DNA from: an uncultured Vogesella sp.
Lineage (GTDB): Bacteria; Pseudomonadota; Gammaproteobacteria; Burkholderiales; Chromobacteriaceae
Assembly: GCA_946479405.1 (NCBI GenBank)
Contig: CAMLGD010000077.1
Span: 1-13,905, forward strand
Reading direction: 5' to 3'
DNA length: 13,905 nucleotides
Shown here: piece by piece, positions 2 through 13,404 of the stretch
Layout: each line of letters begins with the position of its first letter
Numbering within the stretch: position 1 is the first letter of the stretch
Position numbers and translations under genes: made by a program
The notes under the pieces: generated by a model
Told to the model about the DNA's origin: nothing
The model's input: only the letters and a program-made list of their open reading frames with translations
Databases searched by the model: none

Positions 2-778
2 TTCATCAACGAGCGCGTGCACGCCAACATCCAGAAGGACGGCACCTACTCGGTGGTGCCGCGCATGTGGGGCGGTGTGACCAACCCGTCCGAGCTACGC
101 CGCATCGCCGACGTGGCCGACAAGTATGAAATCCCGATGGTGAAGGTGACCGGCGGCCAACGTATCGACCTGTTGGGCGTGAAGAAGGAAGACCTGCCCA
201 AGGTATGGCAGGAGCTGGACATGCCGTCCGGCCACGCCTACGGCAAGAGTCTGCGCACGGTGAAGACCTGCGTCGGCAGCGAGTTCTGCCGCTTCGGTAC
301 CCAGGATTCCACCCAGATGGGCATCGACCTGGAAAAAGACCTGTTCGGCATGTGGAGCCCGGCCAAGGTGAAGCTGGCGGTATCCGGCTGCCCGCGCAAC
401 TGCGCCGAATCCGGCATCAAGGACGTGGGCATCATCGGCGTGGATTCCGGCTGGGAGCTGTACATCGGCGGCAACGGCGGTATCAAGACCGAGGTGGCCG
501 AGTTCTTCTGCAAGGTGAAGACCCGCGAGGAGGTGATGGAGTACAGCGGCGCCTTCCTGCAGCTGTACCGCGAGGAGGCGTTCTACCTGGAGCGCACTGT
601 GCACTTCTTGCAGCGCGTGGGCATGGACTACATCAAGCAGCGCGTGCTGAGTGACAACGTTGGCCGCAGCGAGCTGTATGCGCGGCTGAAGTTTGCGCTG
701 TCGTTCGAGCAGGACCCGTGGGCCGAGCGCTACGCCAAGGGCGTCGCCAACCACGAGTTCGCCCCGCTTACCGTGTAA
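2..778 (+). CDS. nirB: Nitrite reductase large subunit, C-terminal part (5' end outside window)
   Basis: This is the C-terminal sirohaem/[4Fe-4S] domain of the NAD(P)H-dependent cytoplasmic nitrite reductase, which reduces nitrite to ammonium. The frame is open from the first bases (FINERVHANIQ...) and ends in TAA at 776-778, so about 258 residues are seen of a family usually over 800. The cluster ligands are present: Cys codons at 269 and 287 form C-x5-C (CVGSEFC), and those at 389 and 401 form C-x3-C (CPRNC), the sirohaem-bridged cluster signature. The GTG at 17 is not a credible start because homology to NirB continues upstream of it. nirD, nasA and cobA follow on the same strand, which makes this the assimilatory nitrate/nitrite cluster. 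The FAD and NADH-binding N-terminal domains must lie outside the window. The family call is very secure. Confidence 0.96.
   Translation, partial: FINERVHANIQKDGTYSVVPRMWGGVTNPSELRRIADVADKYEIPMVKVTGGQRIDLLGVKKEDLPKVWQELDMPSGHAYGKSLRTVKTCVGSEFCRFGTQDSTQMGIDLEKDLFGMWSPAKVKLAVSGCPRNCAESGIKDVGIIGVDSGWELYIGGNGGIKTEVAEFFCKVKTREEVMEYSGAFLQLYREEAFYLERTVHFLQRVGMDYIKQRVLSDNVGRSELYARLKFALSFEQDPWAERYAKGVANHEFAPLTV
656..669 (+). repeat. Dispersed motif, 13 of 14 match, in nirB
   Basis: AACGTTGGCCGCAG, one base from the consensus AAGGTTGGCCGCAG. Read in the nirB frame it encodes N-V-G-R-S. Confidence 0.7.
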
Positions 779-784
779 TGCCGA

Positions 785-807
785 GCCCCCGGTGCCTGGC
801 CGGGGGC
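785..807 (+). other. Intercistronic GC-rich hairpin between nirB and nirD
   Basis: The arms GCCCCCGG (785-792) and CCGGGGGC (800-807) pair perfectly over 8 bp around a 7-base loop, in the 54-base gap between nirB and nirD. No T-run follows, so it is not a canonical terminator. It could be an mRNA processing or stability element, or could tune nirB:nirD expression. The role is inference; the pairing is seen. Confidence 0.5.
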
Positions 808-832
808 CACTCTGAAGCAAAGGAAACCAACC

Positions 833-1147
833 ATGACCGAATGGAAAGCCGTCTGCCAGCTGGCCGACATCCCGTCGCAGGGCGCCCGCGTGCTGAAGCG
901 CGAAGGCAAGGTGGACATCGCCATCTTCCGCACCGCCGACGACCAGCTGTTCGCGTTGCACGACAAATGCCCGCACAAGGGTGGCCCGCTGTCGCAGGGC
1001 ATCGTCTCGGGCCGCAGCGTGGCCTGCCCGCTGCACAACTGGAACATCGATCTGGCCACCGGCCAGGCCTGTGCGCCGGACGAAGGCTGCACCGGACACA
1101 TCGCGCTGAAGCAGGAAGCCGGCACCGTGTTCCTGGCGCTGGACTGA
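833..1147 (+). CDS. nirD: Nitrite reductase small subunit, Rieske-type
   Basis: Small subunit of the cytoplasmic NAD(P)H nitrite reductase, 104 aa, the usual NirD length. It carries a complete Rieske signature: CPH near residue 46, then 17 residues, then CPLH near residue 66 (C-x-H...C-x2-H). This suggests a bound [2Fe-2S] cluster, unlike enterobacterial NirD proteins in which these ligands are lost. The ATG at 833 is preceded by an AAAGGAAA ribosome binding site with good spacing. It lies 54 bases after nirB and 87 bases before nasA, in the same orientation, so co-transcription is likely. The protein presumably docks on NirB to complete electron transfer to the sirohaem. The call rests on the motif, size and position. 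Confidence 0.94.
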   Translation: MTEWKAVCQLADIPSQGARVLKREGKVDIAIFRTADDQLFALHDKCPHKGGPLSQGIVSGRSVACPLHNWNIDLATGQACAPDEGCTGHIALKQEAGTVFLALD

Positions 1148-1165
1148 CAACACCACCCGGCAGGC

Positions 1166-1177
1166 AAGGTTGGCCGC
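1166..1177 (+). repeat. Dispersed motif, 12-base core, intergenic
   Basis: AAGGTTGGCCGC lies between nirD and nasA, directly against the left arm of the 1178-1223 palindrome. Confidence 0.75.
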
Positions 1178-1223
1178 TAGAGCCTGCTCACGCGCTAGCG
1201 AGCTAGTGCGAGAACAGGCTCTA
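1178..1223. repeat. Long imperfect palindrome (about 20 bp stem) upstream of nasA
   Basis: TAGAGCCTG (1178-1186) pairs with CAGGCTCTA (1215-1223). The stem continues inward with two mismatches and a G-T pair through CGCG (1191-1194) with TGCG (1207-1210), to CTAG/CTAG at the tip around a CGAG loop (1199-1202). The structure fills most of the nirD-nasA gap and ends exactly at the AAGGAG ribosome binding site (1223-1228) of nasA. There is no T-run. It may be a dispersed palindromic element or a structure controlling nasA translation or readthrough. The pairing is seen; the function is unknown. Confidence 0.6.
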
Positions 1224-1234
1224 AGGAGACAAAC

Positions 1235-3919
1235 ATGACAGCAACAACGGGACACAACAACACGGTCTCCTCCATCTGCTGCTACTGCGGCACCGGCTGC
1301 GGCGTGCAGGTCACCCCGCTGGGCGATGGTACGGTGCGGGTGATCGGCGACGACAGCCACCCGGCCAACTTCGGCCGCCTGTGCAGCAAGGGCCGCACTC
1401 TGGGTGACACTACCGGCCGTCCCGGTGCGCGCCTGCTGCGGCCAACCTTGCGGCTGGCAAAAGACGCGCCGGCGCAAGCAGTCAGCTGGGACAGCGCGCT
1501 GGCGACGGTCAGCGACAAGCTGGCGGCGGCGATTAGCGAACACGGCCCGGATTCGGTGGCGTTCTACCTGTCCGGCCAGCTGCTGACCGAGGACTACTAC
1601 CTGTTCAACAAGCTGGCGCGCGGCCTGGTGGGCAGCAACAACATCGATACCAACTCGCGGCTGTGCATGTCCAGTGCGGTAACTGGCTACAAGCTGACGC
1701 TGGGTGCCGATGCGCCGCCAGCCTGTTACGACGACCTGGAGCTGGCCGGCTGCGTGTTCATCGCCGGCGCCAATATGGCCTACGCCCACCCGGTGCTGTT
1801 CCGCCGTCTGGAAGAAGCCAAGGCGGCCAACCCGGACATGAAGATCATCGTCGTCGACCCGCGCCGCACCGACACCGCCAGCATCGCCGACCTGTACCTG
1901 CCGGTGCTGCCGGGCACCGACGTGGCGCTGTTCCACGCCATGCTCAATGTGATGATCTGGGAAGACCTGATCGACCGCGATTACATCGAACAGCACACCG
2001 AAGGCTTTGCCGCGCTGCGCGCGCGGCTGCGCGAATTCACTCCGCGCGCCGCCAGCGAGCTGTGCGGCGTGCACGAGGACGACATCGTCACTGCCGCGCG
2101 CTGGTTCGCCAGCAGCCCGGCCACGCTGTCCTGCTACACCATGGGCCTGAACCAGTACAGCAACGGCAGCGACAAGAACGCGGCGCTGATCCATCTGCAC
2201 CTGGCCACCGGCCACATCGGCAAGCCGGGCGCCGGCCCGTTCTCGCTCACCGGCCAGCCCAATGCCATGGGCGGGCGCGAAGTCGGTGGCCTCGCTACCG
2301 TGCTGCCGGGGCACCGCGATCCGGCCAATGCCGCGCACCGCGCCGAAGTGGCGGCGCTGTGGGACGTGCCGGCGCTGCCGGCGCAGCCGGGGCTGTCGGC
2401 GGTGGAGATGTTCGAGGCCGCCGCCGAGGGCAAGATCAAGGTGCTGTGGATCGCCTGTACCAATCCGGCGCAATCGCTGCCGGACCAGGCGCTGGTGCGT
2501 GCGGCGCTGGAAAAAGTGGACTGCGTGATCGTGCAGGAGGCGTTTGCCGGCAGCGAGACGCTGGCCTACGCCGACATCGTGCTGCCGGCCGCCACCTGGC
2601 CGGAAAAGGACGGCACTGTCACCAACAGTGAACGCCGCATCAGCCGCGTGCGCGCCGCGTTGCCGGCACCGGGCGAGGCACGCGAGGACTGGCGCATCGT
2701 CGCCACGGTGGCGCAAAGGTTGGCCGCAGCCATCGCACCGCAGCACGTGGCGAAGTTTGCCTTTGCCGACGGCGCCAGCGTGTTCGCCGAGCATGCCGCC
2801 ACCACCGCCGGCCGCGACCTGGACTACAGCGCGCTCAGCTACGCCATTCTGGATGCGCGCGGCCCGCAGCAGTGGCCGTTCGACGGCAAGGTTGGCCGCA
2901 GCCGGCTGTACGGCGACGGCGTATACCCCACCGCCAGCGGCCGTGCGCAGTTTCTGGATGTGACCTGGCGCACGCCGGCGGACAAGGTGTCGGCGCATTT
3001 CCCCATTCGCCTCACCACCGGCCGCCTGCGCGACCACTGGCACAGCATGAGCCGCACCGCGCTGGTGCCGACGCTGACCCGCCACGTGGAAGAGCCGACC
3101 CTGGCCATGCACCCGCGTGACATGCAGCGCCACAAACTGCAGGCCGGCGAGCTGGTGAAGGTGCGCAACAAGCGTGGCGTGCTGTACCTGCCGGTGCAGC
3201 CCGACGACAGTCTGCGCGCCGGCGTGGCCTTCATTCCCATGCACTGGGGTGGTGCCGCGCTGGGCGGGCAGGGCGTGAACGCTCTCACCAGCCGCGCGCT
3301 GGACCCGCAGTCGAAACAGCCGGAGCTGAAGCTGGCCGCGGTCAGCGTGGAGCCGGCCAAGCTGCCATGGCGGGCCACGCTGCTGCTGCGCGGCGACGTG
3401 CAGACGCTGCGCCCGCAGCTGGACACGCTGCGCGCCGCCTTCCCGTATGCGGTGGCGGTGCCGGTGAGCCTGGATGGGGCCGAGCATCTGCGTCTGCGCC
3501 TGGCCGCCGCTGCCGCGCCATCCGGCGAGCTGCTGGCCGAGCTGGCTACCCGTCTGCTGCCGCATCAGGCCATGCAGGCGGCGTTCGACGATCCGGCACG
3601 CGGCGTGCTGCGCCGGGTGTGGCTGGCCGGCAAGACACCACTGGGCTTCGTACTGGCCGGCGATGTGCGTGCCGATGCCGCGCTGAGCGCATGGCTGGAT
3701 GGCGGCGAGGCGCCCGGCAGTCTGGCCTCGCTGCTGCTGGGGCGGGCCAGCGGCGCGACGCGGGCACGGGTGGTGTGCGCCTGCGAAGGCGTGCGCGAAG
3801 ACGCTATCTGTGCCGGCATCCAGCGTGGGCTGGACGTGGATGGTCTGAAGCGCGAATTGCGCTGCGGCACCGGCTGCGGCTCCTGCGTGCCGGAGCTGAA
3901 GCGGCTATGCGCCGCCTAG
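1235..3919 (+). CDS. nasA: Assimilatory nitrate reductase, molybdopterin catalytic subunit
   Basis: Cytoplasmic molybdoenzyme that reduces nitrate to nitrite for the neighbouring NirBD, 894 aa. The N-terminal [4Fe-4S] ligands are C15, C18, C22 and C50 (CYCGTGC and LCSKG). The Mo-ligand cysteine of the Nas/Nap group is C144 (NSRLCMSS). The molybdopterin-dinucleotide-binding domain lies near residues 590-700 (TGRLRDHWHSMSRT; MHWGG). The last 50 residues hold a BFD-like [2Fe-2S] domain with C848, C850, C881 and C884 (C-x-C-x30-C-x2-C), as in Klebsiella NasA and unlike NarB proteins that lack it. The ATG at 1235 has AAGGAG six bases upstream. No NasC-type NADH-dependent reductase partner is in the window, so the electron donor is unknown. 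Three copies of the AAGGTTGGCCGCAG motif fall inside the gene in three different codon phases. Confidence 0.95.
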   Translation: MTATTGHNNTVSSICCYCGTGCGVQVTPLGDGTVRVIGDDSHPANFGRLCSKGRTLGDTTGRPGARLLRPTLRLAKDAPAQAVSWDSALATVSDKLAAAISEHGPDSVAFYLSGQLLTEDYYLFNKLARGLVGSNNIDTNSRLCMSSAVTGYKLTLGADAPPACYDDLELAGCVFIAGANMAYAHPVLFRRLEEAKAANPDMKIIVVDPRRTDTASIADLYLPVLPGTDVALFHAMLNVMIWEDLIDRDYIEQHTEGFAALRARLREFTPRAASELCGVHEDDIVTAARWFASSPATLSCYTMGLNQYSNGSDKNAALIHLHLATGHIGKPGAGPFSLTGQPNAMGGREVGGLATVLPGHRDPANAAHRAEVAALWDVPALPAQPGLSAVEMFEAAAEGKIKVLWIACTNPAQSLPDQALVRAALEKVDCVIVQEAFAGSETLAYADIVLPAATWPEKDGTVTNSERRISRVRAALPAPGEAREDWRIVATVAQRLAAAIAPQHVAKFAFADGASVFAEHAATTAGRDLDYSALSYAILDARGPQQWPFDGKVGRSRLYGDGVYPTASGRAQFLDVTWRTPADKVSAHFPIRLTTGRLRDHWHSMSRTALVPTLTRHVEEPTLAMHPRDMQRHKLQAGELVKVRNKRGVLYLPVQPDDSLRAGVAFIPMHWGGAALGGQGVNALTSRALDPQSKQPELKLAAVSVEPAKLPWRATLLLRGDVQTLRPQLDTLRAAFPYAVAVPVSLDGAEHLRLRLAAAAAPSGELLAELATRLLPHQAMQAAFDDPARGVLRRVWLAGKTPLGFVLAGDVRADAALSAWLDGGEAPGSLASLLLGRASGATRARVVCACEGVREDAICAGIQRGLDVDGLKRELRCGTGCGSCVPELKRLCAA
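1436..1449 (-). repeat. Dispersed motif, exact 14-base copy, in nasA
   Basis: The + strand reads CTGCGGCCAACCTT, the exact complement of AAGGTTGGCCGCAG, encoding L-R-P-T-L with the next base. Confidence 0.85.
2716..2729 (+). repeat. Dispersed motif, exact 14-base copy, in nasA
   Basis: AAGGTTGGCCGCAG in the phase that encodes R-L-A-A, different from the copies at 1436 and 2888. Confidence 0.85.
2888..2901 (+). repeat. Dispersed motif, exact 14-base copy, in nasA
   Basis: AAGGTTGGCCGCAG in the phase that encodes K-V-G-R-S, only 158 bases after the previous copy. Confidence 0.85.
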
Positions 3920-4076
3920 CGGATTACGGCACGGCGCTTGCTTTGCTACGTTGCTGGCGCCGGCGCTTGAGATAGCTATTTGGTTATAAAAAATCGGTCT
4001 GGCAGAACTTTTGGTATTCGGTATCGTGGCAGCCTGGCCTGTTGGCCCCGTCGCCCGCACACGCAAAGGAAGCAGC

Positions 4077-4832
4077 ATGAATGGCAAAGTATGGTTGGTA
4101 GGCGCCGGTCCCGGTGATGCGGAGCTGTTGACGCTCAAGGCGCTGCGCGTGATTCAGGCCTGCGACGTGTGGCTGGTGGACGACCTGGTTGGCCGCGACA
4201 TTCTGGAGTTTGCCCGTCCCGGCACGCGCATTGTGGAGGTGGGCAAGCGCGGTGGCTGTAAGTCCACGCCGCAGGACTTCATCCTGCGGCTGATGGCGCG
4301 CTATGCGCGGCAGGGCAGGCAGGTGGCGCGGCTGAAAGGCGGCGACCCGTTCATCTTCGGCCGTGGTGGCGAGGAGTGGGCATGGCTGGCCGAGCGCGGC
4401 ATCGAGGTGGAGGCGGTTGGCGGTATCACTGCTGCCTTTGCCGCCGGCACCGATCTGGGCCTGCCGCTGACTCATCGCGGCGTGGCGCGCGGCGTGGCGC
4501 TGGTGACCGCACACACCATGGACGGCTCGCGTCCGGACTGGCAGGGCCTGGCTGCGGCCAACCTTACCGTGGTGTGCTACATGGGCATGGCCAATATCGA
4601 CACGCTGTGCGCTGAGCTGATCACCGCCGGTTTTGCCGCCGAGCTGCCGGTGGCGGTAGTGCATCGTGCCGGCTGCGCCGACCAGCGCCATATCGTTTCC
4701 AGCCTGCAAACGTTGGCCGCAGACGTGGCCAGCAGCGGCCTGGCCAGCCCGGCGGTAATCGTGCTGGGCGAGGTGGTGGCGCACGCCTGTGCCGTGCACG
4801 GCCAGCTTGCCGGACAGGCGGTGGCGGCCTGA
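4077..4832 (+). CDS. cobA: Uroporphyrinogen-III C-methyltransferase (SUMT)
   Basis: Transfers two methyl groups from S-adenosylmethionine to uroporphyrinogen III to give precorrin-2, the precursor of sirohaem and cobalamin. It has 251 aa, the size of a stand-alone SUMT without the dehydrogenase/ferrochelatase part found in CysG. Motifs in order: VGAGPGD at residues 8-14, then RLKGGDPFIFGRGGEE, GITAAFAAGTDLGLPLTHR, and VTAHTMDG. The ATG at 4077 follows CAAAGGAAG with proper spacing; the upstream TTG at 4011 lies in non-conserved sequence. Sirohaem is the NirB cofactor, so placement after nasA makes this the dedicated supply gene of the nitrite reductase operon. The 157-base gap after nasA could also hold its own promoter, but I see no convincing one. 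The gene could equally be named nirE or sumT. Confidence 0.92.
   Translation: MNGKVWLVGAGPGDAELLTLKALRVIQACDVWLVDDLVGRDILEFARPGTRIVEVGKRGGCKSTPQDFILRLMARYARQGRQVARLKGGDPFIFGRGGEEWAWLAERGIEVEAVGGITAAFAAGTDLGLPLTHRGVARGVALVTAHTMDGSRPDWQGLAAANLTVVCYMGMANIDTLCAELITAGFAAELPVAVVHRAGCADQRHIVSSLQTLAADVASSGLASPAVIVLGEVVAHACAVHGQLAGQAVAA
4552..4565 (-). repeat. Dispersed motif, exact 14-base copy, in cobA
   Basis: The + strand reads CTGCGGCCAACCTT, encoding A-A-A-N-L across it, a different phase from the same word at 1436. Confidence 0.85.
4709..4722 (+). repeat. Dispersed motif, 13 of 14 match, in cobA
   Basis: AACGTTGGCCGCAG, encoding T-L-A-A-D across it. Confidence 0.7.
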
Positions 4833-4988
4833 TCGCCACATAGTCGGCAGTGGCAATTTGTGCGGACGACGGTCAATTACGACATGCGCTTGAATCGGGT
4901 CGCTGGTAATTGGCGATATTGCCGTATTTGCCGGCAGGTTTAATCTAAGCTTAACAGCCGATAAATATTTGGTCGTTACATTATGGGC

Positions 4989-5003
4989 TTCGTTGCAAAC
5001 GAA
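4989..5003. promoter_or_regulatory. Small inverted repeat in the porin leader
   Basis: TTCGTT (4989-4994) and AACGAA (4998-5003) are separated by three bases, about 30 bases before the porin start. This could be an operator half-site pair or a weak stem in the 5' untranslated RNA. The surrounding 4935-5030 is clearly AT-richer than the neighbouring genes, as expected for a promoter region, but I cannot assign -35 and -10 boxes with confidence. Confidence 0.25.
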
Positions 5004-5035
5004 ATACCCGAATTAACCACCACTGAGAAATTATC

Positions 5036-6100
5036 GTGCTGAATAAAAAGCTGCTTGCCGTTGCCGTTTCGTCCACTCTGCTGGCGCCGTTTGCCATGGC
5101 GGATGTCACTATTTACGGCACCATTAATGAATCGGTTGAATCGGTAAAAGCCACCGGTGCCGCTAATGCCGCCAATGACCTGCAGTCGGTTGGCCGTGTT
5201 AGCTCCAATGTGTCCAAAATCGGTTTCAAAGGCACCGATGATCTGGGCAATGGCATAAAGGGTGTATGGCAGATCGAGCAGGAAATCTCGATCGACGATG
5301 GCGGTACCCGCAAAGGCTCTTTCGCAACCCGTAACAGCTTTGTGGGCGTGGATAGCAGCTACGGCAAGCTGCTGCTGGGTAACAACGACACGGCGTACAA
5401 GTCGGTACTGAAGGCCGCCATGGTGAACCCGATGGCCGACACCATTGCCGACATGTGCACCGACAAGGCCGTGTTCTGCCGTGGCGATGCCCGTCTGCAA
5501 AACTCGGTGCATTACTACACCCCTGCATATAACGGTCTGCAGGCCGGTGTTTCCTACGGCTTTGACGAAACCCGCGCTGTGGTTGGCACCGAGCGTACCG
5601 ACAAGGCACTGTGGAGCCTGGCCGCGTTGTATACCATCGGCGATTTCAATGCCGGTATCGGTTATGACGTTCGCCAGCAGAAAAATGCGGTTGCCAATAA
5701 TGTTGACCTGGACCAGAGTTTCCTGAAACTGGTGGCCAGCTATAAATTTGGTGATAGCAAAATTGGTGTTGGCTACGAACACGAGAAGAATGAAAAATCC
5801 ACCGGCGATGTCAAGCAGAATGCCTGGACCATCAGCGGTGAGCAGAAATTTGGTAATCTGGGCGTGAATCTGGCCTATGCCAAGCTGGGCGAATCCAAGT
5901 CCGGTGCCAAGGATGGTGCCGACCAGTGGACCCTGGGCGCGACCTACGATGTGTCCAAGCGCACCCAGACCTATGCCTACTACACCCGCATCAATAACCA
6001 GGACGCCGCTACCCGTACCTTTGGCAATGCCGGCCTGAGCGGCATCGGTGCCGGTTCCAACCCGACCGGCATGGGCGTGGGCATGAAGATCGCCTTCTAA
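5036..6100 (+). CDS. General outer-membrane porin (Gram-negative porin family)
   Basis: Trimeric beta-barrel porin for passive diffusion of small hydrophilic solutes, 354 aa. It begins with a clear signal peptide, MLNKKLLAVAVSSTLLAPFAMA, with likely cleavage after AMA-22, followed by DVTIYGTI, the usual first strand of betaproteobacterial porins. Residues 100-125 (SFVGVDSSYGKLLLGNNDTA) match the family, and the protein ends in Phe (MKIAF), the signal for the outer-membrane assembly machinery. Two close cysteines (DMCTDKAVFC) probably form a disulfide in an external loop. The start is a GTG at 5036 with only a weak GAGAAA upstream; no better start fits the signal peptide. The gene is flanked by non-coding DNA and its own terminator, so it is probably monocistronic. 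Codon use is less GC-rich than its neighbours, which suits a highly expressed gene. Confidence 0.92.
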   Translation: MLNKKLLAVAVSSTLLAPFAMADVTIYGTINESVESVKATGAANAANDLQSVGRVSSNVSKIGFKGTDDLGNGIKGVWQIEQEISIDDGGTRKGSFATRNSFVGVDSSYGKLLLGNNDTAYKSVLKAAMVNPMADTIADMCTDKAVFCRGDARLQNSVHYYTPAYNGLQAGVSYGFDETRAVVGTERTDKALWSLAALYTIGDFNAGIGYDVRQQKNAVANNVDLDQSFLKLVASYKFGDSKIGVGYEHEKNEKSTGDVKQNAWTISGEQKFGNLGVNLAYAKLGESKSGAKDGADQWTLGATYDVSKRTQTYAYYTRINNQDAATRTFGNAGLSGIGAGSNPTGMGVGMKIAF

Positions 6101-7951: not shown

Positions 7952-8040
7952 GAGGCTTCTCCATTCAACGACCAGAAGTAGTGGTAAGGCAGTTGTCGGG
8001 TATTACCAAGCACACCCTATGCCTGACACTTTGCTACTGT

Positions 8041-8058
8041 ATTACAGCCGTTTGTAAT
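8041..8058. promoter_or_regulatory. Dyad ATTACA-N6-TGTAAT, possible operator
   Basis: A perfect 6-bp inverted repeat with 6-base spacing lies 90 bases upstream of the 55-aa gene, in the 252-base stretch (7952-8203) without a gene. The half-site spacing fits a dimeric helix-turn-helix regulator. No regulator is encoded nearby and I cannot identify clear promoter boxes, so this is a suggestion only. Confidence 0.3.
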
Positions 8059-8140
8059 CTGGCACCTCGCCGATGATGCAGTTGCCATTTTGGTCTGTCG
8101 CTGTGGTGTCAATGCCGCAAACTACAACATGTCGGGCCAT

Positions 8141-8182
8141 AAAATGACCACGGCCCGACAGCTTGTGGCTGACGGGCCGTGG
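8141..8182 (-). terminator. Terminator of the folE-BLUF operon
   Basis: CCACGGCCCG (8148-8157) pairs with CGGGCCGTGG (8173-8182), with an inner CAGC/GCTG stem. On the - strand it is followed by TCATTTT (8147-8141). It lies 21 bases after the BLUF stop codon. A second sequence, GTCGGGCC at 8131-8138, can pair with GGCCCGAC at 8152-8159 and would compete with the terminator stem. Confidence 0.75.
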
Positions 8183-8203
8183 TAGTGCACAGTTGGCGCG
8201 GGG

Positions 8204-8635
8204 TCAGTGGCTGCTGCGGCCAACGATGGAGGCGGTGGCAATCAGTTCTTCCAGCAGCGCCAGTGCGCTGCCGCCACTCATGCAGAACGGGTCCAGCTGC
8301 GATTTTTCCGAATAGCGCAGCAACAGCGACGGGTTGACCTTGTTCAGGTTCACCTGGCCCATGGTCCAGCCGGCAAAGCGGCGTTCGCTGATTTCCTCGA
8401 AGCTCAGCAGCTCGACATCCTGATGGCGCGAGTCACTGGCGATGTGGTTGTACAGGGCGGACACTTCGCTGCGGCCGCCTTCCAATACTTGCATGAAAAT
8501 ATCGCCGCTGTAGCACAGTACCCCGGTAATGCCGTGGCTGGGGTTGTGCTGCTGCGAGCGGCTCAGGATGGCTTCCAGCAAATCCTGGGTGTGCGGCTGG
8601 GCACAGCGGCTAGCGTAGAGTAGGCGAACGAGCAT
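8204..8635 (-). CDS. Short BLUF-domain blue-light photoreceptor
   Basis: FAD-binding blue-light sensor of 143 aa, a stand-alone BLUF domain of the PixD/BlrB type with a short helical tail and no output domain. The photochemical residues are all present: Y7 (LLYASR), N31 (NPSHGITGV), Q49 (FMQVLEG), W90 (FAGWTMG) and M92, each one position short of the cyanobacterial PixD numbering. It should therefore bind flavin and show the red-shifted signalling state, and act through a partner protein that cannot be seen here. The ATG at 8635 follows AGAGAG. It starts 17 bases after the folE stop and shares that operon, which is an unusual partner. The C-terminal residues (SIVGRSSH) overlap a partial copy of the dispersed GTTGGCCGC motif at 8214-8225. 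Confidence 0.95.
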   Translation of the reverse strand: MLVRLLYASRCAQPHTQDLLEAILSRSQQHNPSHGITGVLCYSGDIFMQVLEGGRSEVSALYNHIASDSRHQDVELLSFEEISERRFAGWTMGQVNLNKVNPSLLLRYSEKSQLDPFCMSGGSALALLEELIATASIVGRSSH

Positions 8636-8652
8636 GATGGTTTCTCTCTGGC

Positions 8653-9366
8653 TTATTTCTTGGGCAGCAGGGACAGGAATTCGCGGCGCAGATCCGGGTT
8701 GGTCAGGAACACGCCACGCATCACACTATTCACCATCTGCGAATTGCTGTCCTTGACGCCGCGCCAGTGCATGCAGAAATGATCGGCCTCCATCACGATG
8801 GCCAGGCCATCCGGGTTCATCTTGTCCTGCAGGGTATTGGCCAGCTGGATCACGGCTTCTTCCTGAATCTGCGGGCGATTCATGATCCATTCGGCGATGC
8901 GGGCATATTTGGAGAGGCCGATCAGGTTGGAGTGCTCGTTTGGCATCACGCCGATCCACACGCGCCCCAGAATCGGGCACAAGTGGTGCGAACAGGCGCT
9001 GCGCACGGTGATCGGGCCGACGATCATCAGCTCGTTCAGTCGCTCGGCATTGGGGAATTCAGTCACCGCAGGCGGCTGCACGTAGCGGCCGCGGAACACT
9101 TCATTCAGGTACATCTTTGCCACGCGGCGGGCGGTGTCCTGAGTGTTGTGGTCGCTTTCGGTGTCGATCACCAGGCTTTGCAGCACGTCGCGCATCTTGG
9201 CTTCGACTTCGTTCAGCAGCTCGTCCAGCTCGCCCGGCTCGATGAAATCGGCAATATTGTCATTGGCATGGAAACGGCGTTGTGCGCCTTTCAGTCGCTC
9301 GCGGATGCGGGCGGATACCGGTACCCGGTAATCGGCTGGATGTTGCTTCGGGCTTTCTTTGCTCAC
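8653..9366 (-). CDS. folE: GTP cyclohydrolase I, slightly divergent type
   Basis: Converts GTP to 7,8-dihydroneopterin triphosphate, the first step of folate and other pterin synthesis. With this start the protein has 237 aa. The zinc ligands fit the family: C125 and H128 in SACSHHLCPILG, and C198 in ADHFCMHWRGV, with GLSKYARI and PQIQEEAVIQLA between them. The segment CSHHLCPI replaces the more common CEHHLLPF, so this is a sub-type. I chose the GTG at 9366 because AGGAG lies 9 bases upstream; the ATG at 9375 abuts AGGAG with no spacing but is possible, and the TTG at 9459 is unlikely. A good promoter lies at 9431-9459. The BLUF gene follows after 17 bases. The product could feed folate, and also methenyl-THF or pterin cofactors of photolyases, which is an inference from the neighbour. 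Confidence 0.92.
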   Translation of the reverse strand: MSKESPKQHPADYRVPVSARIRERLKGAQRRFHANDNIADFIEPGELDELLNEVEAKMRDVLQSLVIDTESDHNTQDTARRVAKMYLNEVFRGRYVQPPAVTEFPNAERLNELMIVGPITVRSACSHHLCPILGRVWIGVMPNEHSNLIGLSKYARIAEWIMNRPQIQEEAVIQLANTLQDKMNPDGLAIVMEADHFCMHWRGVKDSNSQMVNSVMRGVFLTNPDLRREFLSLLPKK

Positions 9367-9430
9367 GCGGTTCATCTCCTGGGCATGCCGGCGGGCGTGC
9401 CTCGGGTTTGTATAGTAGACAGGCGTTTGG

Positions 9431-9459
9431 AAGATAGCCGCGAAGCAGGGGAATGGCAA
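9431..9459 (-). promoter_or_regulatory. Sigma-70-like promoter of folE-BLUF
   Basis: On the - strand TTGCCA (9459-9454) is followed after exactly 17 bases by TATCTT (9436-9431). This predicts a start near 9424 and a leader of about 60 bases before folE. Confidence 0.6.
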
Positions 9460-9484
9460 CTGTTCGGCGGGTAGGGTTATGCGT

Positions 9485-9523
9485 CAAGGATGCGGCCAAC
9501 CTGGCAGGTTGGCCGCATCCTTG
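9485..9523. repeat. Perfect 17-bp inverted repeat built from two copies of the dispersed motif
   Basis: CAAGGATGCGGCCAACC (9485-9501) and GGTTGGCCGCATCCTTG (9507-9523) are exact reverse complements around TGGCA. Each arm contains the GTTGGCCGC core of the motif found throughout the window. No T-run follows on either strand, so it is not an ordinary terminator of fliW, which has its own at 9701-9737. It lies just upstream of the folE promoter. Inverted DNA-uptake-sequence pairs in Neisseria have the same architecture. Confidence 0.85.
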
Positions 9524-9531
9524 GCATCCGT

Positions 9532-9700
9532 TCATAACTTTGTCATCAGCGTGGTCAGTTGGTCCGGGCGGCGATCGTCACGGTTCAGGCGCTGGCATAG
9601 ATCGCGGTCGGTCTGGATACCACCACCACGTCGCTGGCATCGAGCAGGAGCAGCTCGAAGAAATCTGCTGCCAACTGGCGGCGGTGCGTTCGTGGGGCAT
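9532..9700 (-). pseudogene. Possible frameshifted gene remnant between fliW and folE
   Basis: This 380-base gene-free gap contains, on the - strand, two adjacent stretches with normal coding base use in different frames. The first (about 9680-9615) reads LAADFFELLLLDASDVVVV. The second (about 9615-9532) reads GIQTDRDLCQRLN and RDDRRPDQLTTLMTKL and ends in TGA. A change of frame at a GTGGTGGTGG run would join them into one peptide. No start codon with a ribosome binding site serves either part, and the fliW terminator stands just upstream. I do not recognise the protein. It may be a decayed gene, a sequencing error in a real small gene, or chance. Confidence 0.3.
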
Positions 9701-9737
9701 AAACAAAACAGCGCACGGCGATGACGCGGTGCGCTGT
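9701..9737 (-). terminator. Rho-independent terminator of fliW
   Basis: ACAGCGCAC (9708-9716) pairs with GTGCGCTGT (9729-9737). On the - strand the stem is followed by the T-rich TTTTGTTT (9708-9701). It lies 19 bases after the fliW stop. Confidence 0.85.
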
Positions 9738-9755
9738 GGCGTGAGCTGCTGAAGA

Positions 9756-10196
9756 TCAGCGGTTGTGGAACACGATGTCGCAATCCAGATTGGTTTTCTG
9801 CAGCCCCTGCAGCTTGGCAAAATTGATGATCAGCGGGTTGCGCACATTGGCGCGCAGGTGCGTCAGCAGCGGCTGCTGCGGGTCTTCCTGGCCATCGCGA
9901 TAGATGATCAGCAGCACGCCAACATCCTCCGGGCGGGTCAGCTGCAGGGAGGCTACTTCGGCATCATCCAGCTGCACTTCGTAGCGGATGCCCAGATTGC
10001 CCGGCTCGGTCACGCTGAACAGCACATCCGGTTCGTCCAGCGACTGCAGCCAGTGCACGCGCGGGCTGTCGCAGTCGGCATCGTGGAACAGCTTGAAGCG
10101 CTTGCAGTGTTCGAATGCCGGCAGGCCATCGGCAAAAGTGATGATGCTTTGTTCGTCGACATCCACTTCGCCCAGCAGGCTGGTGTTGAACAGCAT
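9756..10196 (-). CDS. fliW: Flagellar assembly factor FliW
   Basis: FliW binds flagellin and the translational repressor CsrA, so that free flagellin level controls flagellin mRNA translation. The 146-aa length is typical. Family features are visible in order: ITFADGLPAFEHCKRFKL at residues 19-36, WLQSLDEPDVLFSVTEP at 49-65, and near the C-terminus LRANVRNPLIINFAKLQGLQ, the usual N-(A/V)-x-(A/N)-P-hIIN element. The ATG at 10196 has a strong TGAGGAGA site eight bases upstream, a TTGCCA/CATAAT promoter, and a terminator close behind, so the gene is monocistronic. Neither csrA nor any flagellar gene is in the window, whereas fliW is often beside csrA. The cell is therefore expected to be flagellated, with those genes elsewhere. 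Confidence 0.93.
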   Translation of the reverse strand: MLFNTSLLGEVDVDEQSIITFADGLPAFEHCKRFKLFHDADCDSPRVHWLQSLDEPDVLFSVTEPGNLGIRYEVQLDDAEVASLQLTRPEDVGVLLIIYRDGQEDPQQPLLTHLRANVRNPLIINFAKLQGLQKTNLDCDIVFHNR

Positions 10197-10225
10197 GGTG
10201 TTCTCCTCAGGTCTTTGGTGGCTGA

Positions 10226-10253
10226 ATTATGCATCATGGCAGTTTGCTGGCAA
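10226..10253 (-). promoter_or_regulatory. Sigma-70-like promoter of fliW
   Basis: On the - strand TTGCCA (10253-10248) and CATAAT (10231-10226) are 16 bases apart, predicting a start near 10219 and a leader of about 23 bases. Being sigma-70-like, it suggests that fliW is not tied to a flagellar-class sigma factor, though other promoters cannot be excluded. Confidence 0.65.
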
Positions 10254-10301
10254 TGACAAATCGCAAGCGTGCGCCAGCTGTGCCGCTGACCGCCGGCACA
10301 G

Positions 10302-10307
10302 TACAAT
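10302..10307 (+). promoter_or_regulatory. Possible -10 box very close to the DUF455 start
   Basis: TACAAT, one base from the -10 consensus, ends 8 bases before the ATG at 10316. No good -35 box is seen 16-18 bases upstream and no ribosome binding site precedes the ATG. Together this fits a leaderless or nearly leaderless mRNA, but it is tentative. Confidence 0.35.
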
Positions 10308-10315
10308 GCCGCCCC

Positions 10316-11167
10316 ATGAATGCAGATGCTTCCCTATATCCGGCCATCGAGCAGCAGTTGCTGGCGACGGATATCGATAACAAGCCGTCAGCGGTACAGG
10401 CCTTGTATGCGCGCTGGCAGCAGCGGCTGATGTTGCGCGATGCGACGGCGTCGCTGTATCCGGTGCCGGAGCCGGGGCGGCCATTGCGGCCAACCCTGGT
10501 ACGACCGGCGGACGTGCCGCGGCGGCGGCTGGGTAGTCCGGAAGGTCACGCCGCGATGGTGCATGCCATCGCCCATATTGAATTCAATGCCATCAATCTG
10601 GCACTGGATGCGGCCTGGCGCTTCCGGGACATGCCGGACAGCTATGTGGACGACTGGCTGCGCATTGCCGCCGAAGAGGCCGAGCACTTCCAGCTGCTGC
10701 GTGCACGGCTGCAGGCGCTGGGTTTCGACTATGGCGATTTCCCCGCCCACAATTCGCTGTGGGAAATGGCGGTGAAGACCGACCACGACGTGCTGGTGCG
10801 CATGGCGCTGGTGCCACGGGTGATGGAAGCGCGTGGGCTGGATGCCATACCGGGGGTGCGGGACAAGTTGCGCCATATCGGTGACCTGGAGACGGCCGCA
10901 GTGCTGGACATCGTGCTGCGTGATGAAGTGGGGCACGTGCGTGCCGGTAATTACTGGTTTACCACACTATGCGATGCACGCGGGCTGGAGCCACTGGCGA
11001 CCTTCCGTGATTTGCTGTGTGGTTACCGTGTGGGCGAGTTGCGCGGTGCGTACAACTGGGATGCCCGCATTGATGCCGGTTTCAGTGCCCTGGAATTGAC
11101 CATGTTGCAAGACTTCACCGTGACGCGTGAACGTCGGGAGAAAGACACAGATGCAAGCGTTGTTTGA
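10316..11167 (+). CDS. DUF455 family ferritin-like di-iron protein
   Basis: Predicted soluble four-helix carboxylate-bridged di-iron protein of 283 aa; its reaction is not known to me. The ferritin-like ligand pattern is complete: E89 (AHIEFNAIN), E121 and H124 (EEAEHF), E171 (RVMEARG), and E204 and H207 (RDEVGHVRAGN), which is E...ExxH...E...ExxH. The long conserved stretch around YGDFPAHNSLWEMAVKT is typical of DUF455 proteins, which are relatives of MiaE-like hydroxylases. The start at ATG 10316 gives MNADASLYPAIEQQ; the upstream ATG at 10229 would add unconserved residues overlapping the fliW promoter. No ribosome binding site is seen before 10316. The next gene overlaps its end by 17 bases, so the two are translationally coupled. 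The family call is secure and the function unknown. Confidence 0.88.
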   Translation: MNADASLYPAIEQQLLATDIDNKPSAVQALYARWQQRLMLRDATASLYPVPEPGRPLRPTLVRPADVPRRRLGSPEGHAAMVHAIAHIEFNAINLALDAAWRFRDMPDSYVDDWLRIAAEEAEHFQLLRARLQALGFDYGDFPAHNSLWEMAVKTDHDVLVRMALVPRVMEARGLDAIPGVRDKLRHIGDLETAAVLDIVLRDEVGHVRAGNYWFTTLCDARGLEPLATFRDLLCGYRVGELRGAYNWDARIDAGFSALELTMLQDFTVTRERREKDTDASVV

Positions 11168-11363
11168 CAAAATGAAGACCAATCGCCGCCTGGCGATTGC
11201 CGTAGTGGTGGCGGGGACGCTGCTGTTTATCCTGGCATCCGCCAGTCGCCAGGCCGCAGGCGATTCGTGGCTGGTGGAGCTGCTGTCCTCGCTGTGCATG
11301 TTGCTGGGTATTGCCGGCCAGTTCCTGGGCCTGGCTGCCTTGCTGAAAAATCCGCGTCGCTGA
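11151..11363 (+). CDS. Small two-helix membrane protein, function unknown
   Basis: A 70-aa protein whose ATG at 11151 lies inside the last codons of the DUF455 gene, with GGGAG 10 bases upstream. The N-terminal 13 residues are charged (MQALFDKMKTNRR), then come two hydrophobic stretches, RLAIAVVVAGTLLFILASA at about 13-31 and WLVELLSSLCMLLGIAGQF at about 40-58, and a short basic tail KNPRR. By the positive-inside rule both ends are probably cytoplasmic. Its overlap with the di-iron protein suggests co-translation and perhaps a membrane anchor or partner role, which is inference. An upstream in-frame ATG at 11127 is less likely. I do not recognise the family. Confidence 0.72.
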   Translation: MQALFDKMKTNRRLAIAVVVAGTLLFILASASRQAAGDSWLVELLSSLCMLLGIAGQFLGLAALLKNPRR

Positions 11364-11413
11364 AATGGCATTAAAAACAGTGGCTTAATGTCGCATTGCT
11401 GACTGGGTGATTC

Positions 11414-11442
11414 TTGACGCCCCGTTGGGTGGCGCGCATAAT
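11414..11442 (+). promoter_or_regulatory. Strong sigma-70 promoter upstream of the 139-aa protein
   Basis: TTGACG (11414-11419) and CATAAT (11437-11442) are 17 bases apart, each one base from consensus. This is the best promoter in the window. The predicted start is near 11449, so the transcript meets the hairpin at 11452-11498 at once. Confidence 0.75.
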
Positions 11443-11451
11443 CGCACCGCA

Positions 11452-11498
11452 ACAAAACACATGTAAAAGGCTCCGGATCGGGGCCTTTTATGTTTTGT
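11452..11498 (+). terminator. Terminator-shaped hairpin in the leader of the 139-aa gene
   Basis: AAAAGGCTCCG (11465-11475) pairs with CGGGGCCTTTT (11479-11489) with one G-T pair. An outer stem of ACAAAAC (11452-11458) with GTTTTGT (11492-11498) extends it. The A-rich left flank and T-rich right flank fit a bidirectional terminator, perhaps ending the DUF455 operon. It lies between a strong promoter and the ATG at 11518, so it could also act as an attenuator. Confidence 0.7.
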
Positions 11499-11517
11499 CT
11501 TGTACCCGGAGACACGC

Positions 11518-11937
11518 ATGGATTACCAGGCATTTCTGCGCGCGCTGGAAACACACGCGCTGCCTGCAGAGCAGTTCAATCACCAGGCCCACCTGCAGGC
11601 GGCCTGGGCCTATCGCCGCAGCTACGCCGCCCGCGAGGCAGCGGCACGCTGTGCGCGGGCTTTGTCGCGCTATGCCATGGCCAAGGGTGCGCCGCAAAAA
11701 TATCACCACACCGTTACCCTGGCGTTTCTTACCATCATCTACAACCGGCTGGAGCAAACCCCGGCCCAGGTGATGGACTGGCACGCCTTTGTGGCGGCCA
11801 ACGCCGATTTGCTGCACGATGCGCGCAGTCTGCTCGGCCAGCATTACTCAGAGCAAAAACTGCAGGATGACAATGCGCGCCGCCGCTTTGTCGAACCGGA
11901 CCTGGCACCACTACCAGTGTCCTGTCTTACCCACTGA
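11518..11937 (+). CDS. Uncharacterised 139-aa protein with conserved-looking His motifs
   Basis: The ATG at 11518 has CGGAGA eight bases upstream; the TTG at 11500 overlaps the hairpin and is unlikely. The sequence is helical and soluble, with no membrane segment. Its notable elements are FNHQAHLQAAWAYRRSY at residues 20-36, KYHHTVTLAFLTIIYNRL at 61-78, and near the end QDDNARRRFVEPDLAPLP. I have an impression that FNH-x2-HL-x-AW-x-Y and YHxTxT recur in uncharacterised bacterial proteins, but I cannot name the family. The His residues 22, 25, 63 and 64 could bind a metal. trhP follows after 23 bases on the same strand and probably shares its transcript. Confidence 0.75.
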   Translation: MDYQAFLRALETHALPAEQFNHQAHLQAAWAYRRSYAAREAAARCARALSRYAMAKGAPQKYHHTVTLAFLTIIYNRLEQTPAQVMDWHAFVAANADLLHDARSLLGQHYSEQKLQDDNARRRFVEPDLAPLPVSCLTH

Positions 11938-11960
11938 ATACGCGAAAGACCACCCCACCG

Positions 11961-13310
11961 ATGAAAGCCCCCGAACTGCTGCTGCCGGCCGGTACGCTGG
12001 ACAAGATGCGTGCCGCCTACGATTTTGGCGCCGATGCCGTTTACGCAGGCCAGCCGCGTTACTCCCTGCGCGCGCGCAACAATGATTTCAAGCTGGAAGA
12101 GCTGCGCATCGGCATCGAAGAAGCCCATGCCCGCGGCAAGAAGCTGTTTGTGGCCAGCAACATCCTGCCGCACAACAGCAAGATCAAGACTTACATGTCG
12201 GACATGGAACCGGTGATCGAGATGAAGCCGGACGCGCTGATCATGGCCGACCCGGGGCTGATCATGATGGTGCGCGAACGTTGGCCGCATGTGCCCATCC
12301 ACTTGTCGGTGCAGGCCAACACCACCAACTACATGGGGGTGAAGTTCTGGCAGAAGATGGGCGTGGAACGCATCATCCTGTCGCGCGAACTGTCCCTCGA
12401 TGAGATCGCCGAGATCCGTCAGGAATGCCCGGACATGGAGCTGGAGGTGTTCGTGCACGGCGCGCTGTGCATTGCCTATTCCGGCCGCTGCCTGCTGTCC
12501 GGTTACTTCAACCACCGCGACCCGAACCAGGGCACCTGTACCAACGCCTGCCGCTGGGACTACAAGGTGCACGACACCCAGGGCGACGATGCCGGCGACG
12601 TGAAGCCGCAGAAGATCGACTTCGATTTCGGCAAGGCGCTGGAAGAAGCCAACCAGAGCTTCTCTTCCTGCGGCAGCCAAGAGCGCCACCCGCTGGCCGA
12701 CAAGACCTACCTGATCGAAGAGGCCAACCGCCCGGGCGAGATGATGCCGATCATCGAAGACGAGCACGGCACCTACATCATGAACTCCAAGGACCTGCGT
12801 GCAGTGGAGCAGGTGGAGAAGCTGGTGAAGATCGGCGTGGATTCGCTGAAGATCGAAGGCCGCACCAAGAGCCTGTACTACGTGGCGCGTACCGCGCAGA
12901 CCTACCGCCGCGCCATCGACGACGCCGTCGCTGGCCGTCCGTTTGACTACAGCTTGCTGGCCGAGCTGGAAGGTCTTGCCAACCGTGGCTACACCCCGGG
13001 CTTCCTCGAACGCCACCAGACGCAAGAGCACCAGAACTACCTGTCGGGGCATTCCATCGCCAAGCAGAGCCAGTACGTCGGTGACGTGATGGAAGTGGAC
13101 GCCGACGGCTGGGCGCTGATCGACGTGAAAAACCGTTTCGCCGTCGGCGACCGCGTGGAAATCATCCATCCGAGCGGCAACCGCGTGGTGGAGCTGGCCA
13201 GCATGACCCGCAATGGCGAGGCCATCGAAGTGGCCTCCGGCAACGGTTTCAAGGTGCGGATTCCGGACATGGCTGGCATGGAAAAGGCGCTGCTGGCGCG
13301 CCTGCTCTAA
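11961..13310 (+). CDS. trhP: tRNA 5-hydroxyuridine synthesis protein, peptidase U32 family
   Basis: TrhP (formerly YegQ) takes part in prephenate-dependent hydroxylation of U34 in tRNA, giving 5-hydroxyuridine, the precursor of cmo5U/mo5U in the wobble position. The 449-aa length matches the E. coli protein. It begins KAPELLLPAGTLDKMRAAYDFGADAVYAG, shown here only by its key words (PELLLPAG, GADAVY). The U32 signature is EVFVHGALCIAYSGRCLLSG, with C170 and C177, followed by C193 and C197 in GTCTNACRW, probable [4Fe-4S] ligands. The C-terminal beta-barrel part includes KNRFAVGDRVEIIHPSG. The ATG at 11961 has only a weak ribosome binding site, which fits coupling to the gene 23 bases upstream. 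A terminator follows at 13334. Despite the family name, peptidase activity is not expected. Confidence 0.92.
   Translation: MKAPELLLPAGTLDKMRAAYDFGADAVYAGQPRYSLRARNNDFKLEELRIGIEEAHARGKKLFVASNILPHNSKIKTYMSDMEPVIEMKPDALIMADPGLIMMVRERWPHVPIHLSVQANTTNYMGVKFWQKMGVERIILSRELSLDEIAEIRQECPDMELEVFVHGALCIAYSGRCLLSGYFNHRDPNQGTCTNACRWDYKVHDTQGDDAGDVKPQKIDFDFGKALEEANQSFSSCGSQERHPLADKTYLIEEANRPGEMMPIIEDEHGTYIMNSKDLRAVEQVEKLVKIGVDSLKIEGRTKSLYYVARTAQTYRRAIDDAVAGRPFDYSLLAELEGLANRGYTPGFLERHQTQEHQNYLSGHSIAKQSQYVGDVMEVDADGWALIDVKNRFAVGDRVEIIHPSGNRVVELASMTRNGEAIEVASGNGFKVRIPDMAGMEKALLARLL
12277..12289 (+). repeat. Dispersed motif variant in trhP
   Basis: AACGTTGGCCGCA in the third phase, encoding R-W-P-H across it. 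Confidence 0.65.
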
Positions 13311-13333
13311 GCCGACCCGGCCGAGCCGCTACC

Positions 13334-13359
13334 AAAGCCGCGCCCTGGTGCGGCTTTTT
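13334..13359 (+). terminator. Rho-independent terminator of trhP
   Basis: AAAGCCGC (13334-13341) pairs with GCGGCTTT (13350-13357), with two further inner pairs, and the T-run reaches 13359. It lies 24 bases after the trhP stop. Confidence 0.88.
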
Positions 13360-13390
13360 GCTGCCTGCCAATGGTGGTCGCGGCACATTC

Positions 13391-13404
13391 AAGGTTGGCC
13401 GCAG
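13391..13404 (+). repeat. Dispersed motif, exact 14-base copy, between trhP and argS
   Basis: AAGGTTGGCCGCAG lies in non-coding DNA 32 bases after the trhP terminator, so protein coding cannot explain it. Confidence 0.85.

Follow-up and report, generated by a model that had tools for sequence, protein, structure and literature searches.

A stretch of 13,905 nucleotides from an uncultured Vogesella sp. (the window, meaning the whole stretch of DNA analysed) carries a short word, AAGGTTGGCCGCAG, at scattered sites on both strands, within and between genes. The question raised by this locus is what such a word is kept for. A first-pass annotation, made from the letters, had proposed a dialect of DNA uptake sequence (DUS) or another genome-wide signal, and this proposal is supported by the counts, sister words, spread, weak polarity and comP-like pilin described below. 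The motif is very probably an uptake signal of the DUS type in Vogesella, read by a candidate ComP.

Motif copies in the window

Direct motif search recovered the following copies of the exact 14-mer, its close variants and its 9-base core, GTTGGCCGC.

153..161, minus strand: core GTTGGCCGC, nirB fragment
656..669, plus strand: copy with 13 of 14 bases, AACGTTGGCCGCAG, nirB fragment
1166..1179, plus strand: 12-base copy (first 12 bases exact, two mismatches to the 14-mer), between nirD and the nitrate reductase gene
1436..1449, minus strand: exact 14-mer AAGGTTGGCCGCAG, assimilatory nitrate reductase gene
1823..1831, minus strand: core, nitrate reductase gene
2716..2729, plus strand: exact 14-mer, nitrate reductase gene, peptide RLAA
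2888..2901, plus strand: exact 14-mer, nitrate reductase gene, peptide VGRS
4188..4196, plus strand: core, uroporphyrinogen-III C-methyltransferase gene, peptide VGRD
4552..4565, minus strand: exact 14-mer, uroporphyrinogen-III C-methyltransferase gene, peptide AANL
4709..4722, plus strand: copy with 13 of 14 bases, uroporphyrinogen-III C-methyltransferase gene, peptide TLAA
6608..6616, minus strand: core, aromatic amino acid transaminase gene, peptide AANY
8216..8224, minus strand: core, BLUF-domain gene, near the 3′ end, peptide VGRS
9485..9523, no strand: perfect inverted repeat with 19-nt arms and a 1-nt spacer, between fliW and folE
9492-9500, minus strand, and 9508-9516, plus strand: cores inside this repeat, in opposite orientations (motif search)
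10486..10494, minus strand: core, DUF455 gene
11794..11802, minus strand: core, ORF 11500-11937, peptide AANA
12277..12290, plus strand: two-mismatch copy, AACGTTGGCCGCAT, trhP (U32 peptidase family); core conserved in 9 of the 10 Vogesella sequences
13391..13404, plus strand: exact 14-mer, in the intergenic DNA that follows trhP; core conserved in 10 of 10 aligned Vogesella sequences

The five exact copies claimed in the first-pass annotation were all found again at the same positions and on the same strands, and its weaker copies proved accurate as well: those at 656 and 4709 have one mismatch each, that at 1166 is exact in its first 12 bases, and the related copy at 12277 has two mismatches. 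Its count of 18 cores, where well under one would be expected by chance, also holds, since 18 were counted in 13.9 kb against a shuffle mean of 0.56 (largest 4). Matches to AAGGTTGGCCGCAG with three or fewer mismatches number 15 in the window, whereas 200 dinucleotide-shuffled versions average 2.28 and reach 7 at most.

It had further been claimed that the copies occur in both orientations and in different codon phases, write unrelated peptides and also lie between genes. Indeed, 14 of the 18 cores fall in predicted genes, in several codon phases and both directions, where they write VGRS, LRPT, AANP, RLAA, VGRD, AANL, TLAA, AANY, AANA, GGQR and RWPH, and the other 4 of 18 are intergenic. Two of these four form the arms of the inverted repeat at 9485-9523, which folds as RNA into a hairpin of -34.5 kcal/mol. 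This repeat is absent from the list of features in the earlier annotation.

Abundance and dialects in Chromobacteriaceae genomes

Genome-wide statements refer to relatives of the window's organism, that is, to other Vogesella and Chromobacteriaceae genomes. The exact 14-mer occurs 117-251 times per genome in all seven Vogesella genomes, compared to 0-1 times in all 18 other genomes. In the sampled chromosome of one Vogesella (LIG4), GTTGGCCGCA is the top 10-mer found de novo, with 574 copies against 11.5 expected. The pattern AGGTTGGCCGMR is abundant in 23 of 61 family genomes, with 88-1173 copies (reversed control 0-4), and the remaining 38, which include named Chromobacterium and Aquitalea isolates, have 2-22 (reversed control 0-11). 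The first-pass annotation had proposed counting the word across whole genomes and comparing relatives; the counts in Vogesella and the family lie far above chance and controls, and the comparison uncovered sister words.

The motif is short, non-palindromic and, as in a DUS, the most over-represented word, with exceptions in rank and a low count in one genome. It is the top de novo 10-mer in six of eight other motif-bearing genomes sampled and ranks second in the other two (G052 and G061), while G060 has the fewest copies of AGGTTGGCCGMR among motif-rich genomes, 88. Neither the Aquitalea nor the Chromobacterium sample had it as top de novo 10-mer.

Two sister words, GTTGGCCGAA and GTTGGCCGAG, are characteristic of Gulbenkiania, Crenobacter and others. 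Position +10 holds A in both Vogesella and the AA dialect, and G in the dialect of Crenobacter cavernae and C. luteus. In Vogesella, the strictly kept 10-mer GTTGGCCGCA is preceded by a softer 5′ extension, AAG, and single-base variants of the core are nearly absent. The core of Crenobacter cavernae is softer, with 29 copies carrying C at the second G of GGTTGGCCGAG compared to 118 regular copies, and one of its 20 sampled stretches contains no motif.

Placement, selection and alternative explanations

Placement was determined in 40 stretches around the LIG4 chromosome (0.8 Mb), using gene calls made for this analysis. Confinement of the copies to one region or one gene family had been named in advance as evidence against a genome-wide signal, and the copies are not so confined; all 40 stretches contain them. 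Predicted genes hold 358 of the 574 copies, written there with rare codons, and 216 are intergenic, compared to 95.1 expected. Spacing is more even than random in Vogesella (variance ratio 0.63, P 0.037), and not significantly so in Crenobacter cavernae (variance ratio 0.93, P 0.46). With GC bins as a crude proxy for core versus acquired DNA, motif density is 26.5 per 100 kb in low-GC DNA compared to 95.8, and the ratio to the composition-based expectation is only mildly lower, 79.5 in low-GC DNA compared to 124.7, with a minimum of 71.7 in the 55-60% bin. Copies in genes are under strong synonymous selection acting at the DNA level: Leu-Ala-Ala is written TTG GCC GCA in 116 of 641 cases, compared to 1.4 expected.

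Several other kinds of element have some of these properties. A KOPS- or Chi-like signal for chromosome polarity, segregation or recombination, or a macrodomain mark, would also be short, asymmetric and genome-wide, and Vogesella has a small but nominally significant strand excess, with 315 copies on the G-rich and 259 on the C-rich strand by GC skew (P 0.02). However, the strands are near-equal, in Crenobacter cavernae as well (115 versus 103 relative to GC skew), copies are present in every LIG4 stretch, and inverted pairs would cancel polarity, making such a role very unlikely. The strong strand bias relative to replication that is expected of KOPS or Chi, and that the first-pass annotation had said would favour a polarity signal over uptake, was not found. 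The inverted pairs themselves would fit an element that acts as a hairpin or transcription terminator, single copies then being by-products. There are 52 such pairs in 0.8 Mb, and 46 are intergenic, 20 in convergent and 26 in tandem gaps; none of the 46 lies in a divergent gap, although divergent gaps make up 102 of all 489 (P 2e-5). Three examples that were folded gave stable hairpins. However, the pairs hold just 104 of the 574 copies, most copies are genic, and a lone copy forms no hairpin, yet rare codons are spent on it; this explanation is therefore highly unlikely for the motif as a whole.

The core contains GGCC, and selection could keep a protein site, which would be consistent with the target of a DNA methyltransferase or of another DNA-binding protein without a role in uptake. 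This is improbable, since ten base pairs with a soft extension exceed usual methylation sites, and we know of no other class of site that combines comparable numbers with genus-level dialects and inverted pairs. A mobile short repeat of the REP or MITE kind would likewise be dispersed and could account for palindromic intergenic pairs, but 192 pooled copies show little flank conservation beyond the motif (12 bases upstream and 15 downstream were compared), most LIG4 copies are genic and those in the window encode differing peptides, so that a mobile origin is extremely unlikely.

A ComP-type minor pilin and competence genes

In Neisseria, the DUS is read by ComP. The first-pass annotation had suggested looking for a comP-like minor pilin, and one is present: minor pilins of the ComP clade were placed in the tree for 22 of the 23 motif-rich genomes, and the 23rd has a profile match. 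The tree puts Neisseria ComP (reference row L261) in the same clade as the Chromobacteriaceae pilins and PilE rows outside it. The best PDB match of the pilin is ComP, and solved ComP is the first fold match of the Vogesella ComP model, whereas a PilE control model matched PilV, a Shewanella pilin and PilE ahead of ComP, which still matched at 5e-4. By sequence and modelled fold, the pilin appears to be kin to solved ComP and distinct from other minor pilins. The border with PilV is not sharp, because a PilV-like row from Neisseria (L274) lies within the ComP clade or adjacent to it, as do two pilins from Aquitalea and G058; the WP.L stretch is missing from the Neisseria row and, in the sequences as listed, from the other two.

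Unlike Neisseria ComP, whose rows have four cysteines, Chromobacteriaceae ComP keeps only the C-terminal pair and lacks the pair stapling the DD loop, so that one of the two ComP disulfides, the one joining beta1 to the DD loop, is missing (the other joins beta4 and beta5). A few Chromobacteriaceae rows have extra cysteines in or near the N-terminal helix.

A profile of the ComP-type pilin (A1), built from motif-bearing genomes, also matches all 38 motif-poor genomes, at 52-134 bits, overlapping the four lowest motif-bearing genomes (120-134 bits), and the eight rows from motif-poor genomes that were included in the tree all grouped within the ComP clade. Therefore, with ComP relatives in motif-poor genomes, the presence of the pilin is by itself no predictor of the motif. 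ComEC was over the cut-off in 17 and DprA in 18 of 18 genomes, 12 of them motif-bearing (reading frames are broken in G058), which is weak support because both families are common in other bacteria. Pfam PF16732 (ComP_DUS) matches minor pilins in 50 of 51 genomes, motif-bearing or not, and is shared, like the fold, with PilE and PilV; it therefore does not single out ComP. PF11773, tried as a ComP family, is actually ComGE and had no matches in 17 genomes. Two pilins considered as Neisseriaceae ComP were set aside, the one from L121 having PilV as best match and the one from L123 (Alysiella) having no ComP among its listed matches.

Comparison with known uptake sequences

Frye et al. (2013, PMC3630211) reported no obvious DUS in the Chromobacteriaceae genomes then available; Table S1D of that paper is given as covering over-represented 10-mers of Pseudogulbenkiania, Lutiella, Laribacter and Chromobacterium. 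DUS are defined by an invariant 5′-CTG-3′ core at +6 to +8, and DUS 10-mers reach 943-5918 copies per genome (PMC3630211). The present motif resembles the Neisseriaceae DUS, a strict 10-mer with a softer 2-base 5′ extension, in its construction and in the register of the 10-mer, which spans +1 to +10 and retains C at +6 and G at +8. It also shares genome-wide copies on both strands, genic and intergenic, inverted pairs between genes at gene ends and absent from divergent gaps, genus-level dialects, a ComP-clade minor pilin, and ComEC and DprA. In contrast, all three dialects have CCG in place of the CTG that Neisseria needs, the 5′ half is different (GTTGG), the last two bases are CA, AA or AG by dialect, and copies of AGGTTGGCCGMR are fewer than those of DUS 10-mers. 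The CTG core being absent, the motif is not filed as a canonical DUS dialect.

The USS of Pasteurellaceae are likewise genome-wide, on both strands, divided into dialects and partly arranged in inverted pairs; their sequence, with a GCGGT core, is unrelated. The USS receptor is not regarded as settled; ComN has been proposed (PMC12616744).

Function of the motif

The DUS-type reading is based on the genome-wide enrichment, the dialects, the selection at the level of DNA, the placement of the copies, and the presence of ComEC and DprA together with a ComP-clade pilin. A Neisseria-like repeated word together with a ComP relative makes password-guided uptake probable in a family thought to be without it. 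In the proposed mechanism, GTTGGCCGCA with its soft AAG extension would label the Vogesella chromosome, so DNA released by kin would bear the mark. The ComP-type minor pilin of the type IV pilus would bind this mark at the cell surface and bias uptake, the pilus would draw the DNA inward, and ComEC and DprA would carry it onward. Recombination would then spread marked alleles, and the mark would therefore accumulate. Sister dialects GTTGGCCGAA and GTTGGCCGAG would serve Gulbenkiania, Crenobacter and relatives, and intergenic inverted pairs may double as hairpins or terminators. Tagging donor DNA with GTTGGCCGCA or GTTGGCCGAA may allow laboratory transformation of Vogesella, Gulbenkiania and Crenobacter.

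Origin of the system

This explanation concerns function and is silent on descent from the Neisseria DUS. The chances are about even that the ComP-DUS system is older than Neisseriaceae, having been present in an ancestor shared with Chromobacteriaceae with a word near AGGTTGGCCGAA and a core that was once CCG, and having later disappeared from Chromobacterium and most Aquitalea, leaving a drifting ComP there. Within the DUS-type reading, it is possible, if rather doubtful, that the signal arose independently and that a related pilin came to serve it by parallel recruitment. The words resemble DUS modestly: AGGTTGGCCGAA agrees at 9 of 12 positions (random P about 0.01) and each of the other two dialects at 8 (for the Vogesella motif against DUS dialects, random P 0.06-0.09, not significant alone); the CTG core is not kept, and named Chromobacterium and Aquitalea isolates are motif-poor. 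Against independent origin stand the shared register, in which +6 is C and +8 is G as in DUS, and the grouping of the receptor candidates in one clade with Neisseria ComP.

To our knowledge, uptake words with a known receptor have been described from one family. Own dialects, a related and structurally simpler receptor, and neighbouring genera free of the word would form a natural experiment on the co-evolution of password and reader. The origin of the DUS system has been dated after the split from Chromobacterium (PMC3630211), and a second family with its own uptake dialects would revise this date.

Other occurrences of the motif

Literature occurrences of GTTGGCCG, among the matches listed, appear to be chance hits within sequence text. 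In viral contigs, at least 120 stretches carry the exact 14-mer, with one match each among the 80 matches listed.

Copies in the window and their source lineage

The 9-base core GTTGGCCGC occurs in 18 exact copies on the two strands of the window together, where 0.56 are expected, and the exact 14-mer AAGGTTGGCCGCAG occurs five times, each at the position reported in the first-pass annotation. It had also been claimed that the copies fall in different codon phases and both orientations, as well as between genes, and this is borne out: 14 of the 18 core copies lie inside genes, where they run in either direction and fall in several phases, while four are intergenic, two of these forming a perfect inverted repeat in the fliW-folE gap. 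One genic copy encodes the terminal VGRSSH at the end of the following gene:

8204-8635 (-), BLUF blue-light sensor gene

The window can be placed in Vogesella because its trhP product is 96–97% identical to counterparts in seven Vogesella genomes, one of which (G001) is deposited under the name 'Beta proteobacterium L13'. Over the aligned columns of positions 8212-13905, its identity to V. oryzae (L005) is 88%. In an alignment of the window with nine other Vogesella sequences, each sequence carries 6–8 copies, at 17 positions overall, of which 13 are common to at least two sequences and one to all ten (the intergenic alignment is poor). Copy positions therefore turn over, while copy density holds. 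ComP, the minor pilin that reads the DNA uptake sequence (DUS) of Neisseriaceae, evolves fast in Vogesella, because identity among its sequences (L134-L155) falls to about 47% within the genus despite an unchanged motif.

Taxonomic distribution

The exact 14-mer is present on both strands in 117–251 copies per genome in all seven Vogesella genomes, with none of the reversed motif in the same genomes, and in 0–1 copies in each of 18 other genomes tested. The looser word AGGTTGGCCGMR reaches 88–1173 copies (reversed control 0–4) in 23 of 61 Chromobacteriaceae genomes and 2–22 copies (reversed control 0–11) in the remaining 38. An order-wide sample of 300 evenly drawn genomes contained five motif-rich ones, all Chromobacteriaceae; the others had at most 19 copies.

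Table. Motif-rich Chromobacteriaceae genomes
Vogesella clade, 13: G001-G007, G062-G067 (G062-G067 assigned to the clade by ComP)
Crenobacter, 3: G014, G051, G052
Gulbenkiania, 1: G012
Aquitalea MAG, 1: G032
Others in the family, 5: G053, G058-G061

G060 is a weak member of this set, with 88 copies of AGGTTGGCCGMR. The motif-poor G048 and G049 are slightly above control (22 and 19 copies versus 0–1), and these copies are perhaps remnants of a lost motif. In G058, comEC (C3:1541296-1543079) and dprA (C3:1180068-1180705) look frame-broken, through either assembly error or recent competence loss, and the genome still has 602 motif copies.

Dialects and strictness of the word

De novo ranking of 10-mers by excess over a fourth-order expectation, done for 12 DNA samples, put GTTGGCCGCA first in Vogesella sp. 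LIG4 (G067), where 0.8 Mb of the single-contig chromosome gave 574 copies versus 11.5 expected. In Crenobacter cavernae (G051, P0013) the top word was GTTGGCCGAG (202 versus 7.7), which also leads in C. luteus; the name LIG4 rests on identity of the genome's ComP with P0021. GTTGGCCGAA leads in Gulbenkiania, G053, G058 and the Aquitalea MAG, and ranks second in G061 and G052, where the first place goes to a word overlapping it within the same motif and to a homopolymer run, respectively. No such word was among the ranked 10-mers in 200 kb sampled from each of an Aquitalea-type (G027) and a Chromobacterium-type (G041) genome, whose genera are inferred from ComP-like sequence or score and listing position.

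The core is nearly all-or-none in Vogesella: a single-base scan found 288 copies of GGTTGGCCGCA and at most six for each alternative base inside GTTGGCCGC. At the word edges, the final A is slightly softer (12 C, 15 G) and the leading G much softer. The C. cavernae core is less strict: beside 118 copies, 29 have the second G of GGTTGGCCGAG replaced by C, and 12 have C in place of the second T.

Selection, placement and polarity

Codon choice in LIG4, with genes called by a codon model made for this analysis, follows the motif and points to selection on DNA. Leu-Ala-Ala is written TTG GCC GCA in 116 of 641 cases versus 1.4 expected from codon use, even though both codons are rare, TTG making up 4.7% of Leu codons and GCA 8.4% of Ala codons; Ala-Ala-Asn is GCG GCC AAC in 190 of 225 (31.5 expected), and Val-Gly-Arg is GTT GGC CGC in 70 of 118 (3.9 expected).

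Intergenic copies number 216 of 574 in LIG4 versus 95.1 expected, and 92 of 218 in C. cavernae versus 38.6. Inverted neighbours at most 45 bases apart form 52 pairs (104 copies) in LIG4, 46 of them intergenic: 20 in convergent gaps, 26 in tandem gaps and none in divergent gaps, which make up 102 of the 489 gaps (P 2e-5 for their absence there). The motif is far from the strand pattern of a KOPS or Chi signal, copies on the G-rich and C-rich strands being near-even in LIG4 (315 versus 259, P 0.02) and C. cavernae (115 versus 103, P 0.46). Copies occur in 40 of 40 LIG4 stretches, and one of 20 C. cavernae stretches has none. In LIG4, 20-kb bins differ less in copy number than random placement would give (P 0.037); evenness beyond random was not found in the C. 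cavernae counts.

Comparison with known uptake sequences

DUS dialects are defined in Frye et al. 2013 (PMC3630211) by a CTG that never varies at +6 to +8, together with A at +10. That study saw no obvious DUS in the five Laribacter, Lutiella, Pseudogulbenkiania and Chromobacterium genomes it covered, found no ComP by BLAST in C. violaceum, and concluded that the DUS system post-dates the split from Chromobacterium. The Neisseriaceae DUS, as described there, and the present motif have the same register, with AG at -2/-1, C at +6, G at +8 and the strict 10-mer spanning +1 to +10; however, the DUS core is CTG, whereas the Chromobacteriaceae word has CCG. AGGTTGGCCGAA agrees with both mucDUS and simDUS in 9 of 12 positions (random P about 0.01), and the Vogesella and Crenobacter words match DUS dialects at 8 of 12 (random P 0.06–0.09). 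On sequence evidence, the motif would work like a DUS, yet it is not classed as a canonical dialect, its core being CCG. Among the open papers listed on uptake, competence or transformation in Vogesella, Chromobacteriaceae, Chromobacterium or Pseudogulbenkiania, no title or abstract opening reports the motif; none links Vogesella with an uptake sequence, and those listed for DNA uptake and competence in Chromobacteriaceae deal with Neisseria.

Two Neisseriaceae MAG loci carry DUS-like words of their own. Across the whole locus of Neisseria sp. MAG S32M_Sa_16 (L042), C stands at +9 after GCCGTCTG in 31 of 31 copies, giving ATGCCGTCTGCA. This DUS dialect is reportedly not among the eight of Frye 2013. 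In a goat rumen Neisseriaceae MAG (L049), the simDUS-like AGGCTGCCTGAA fills the locus, whose 21 kb contain CTGCCTGAA 29 times.
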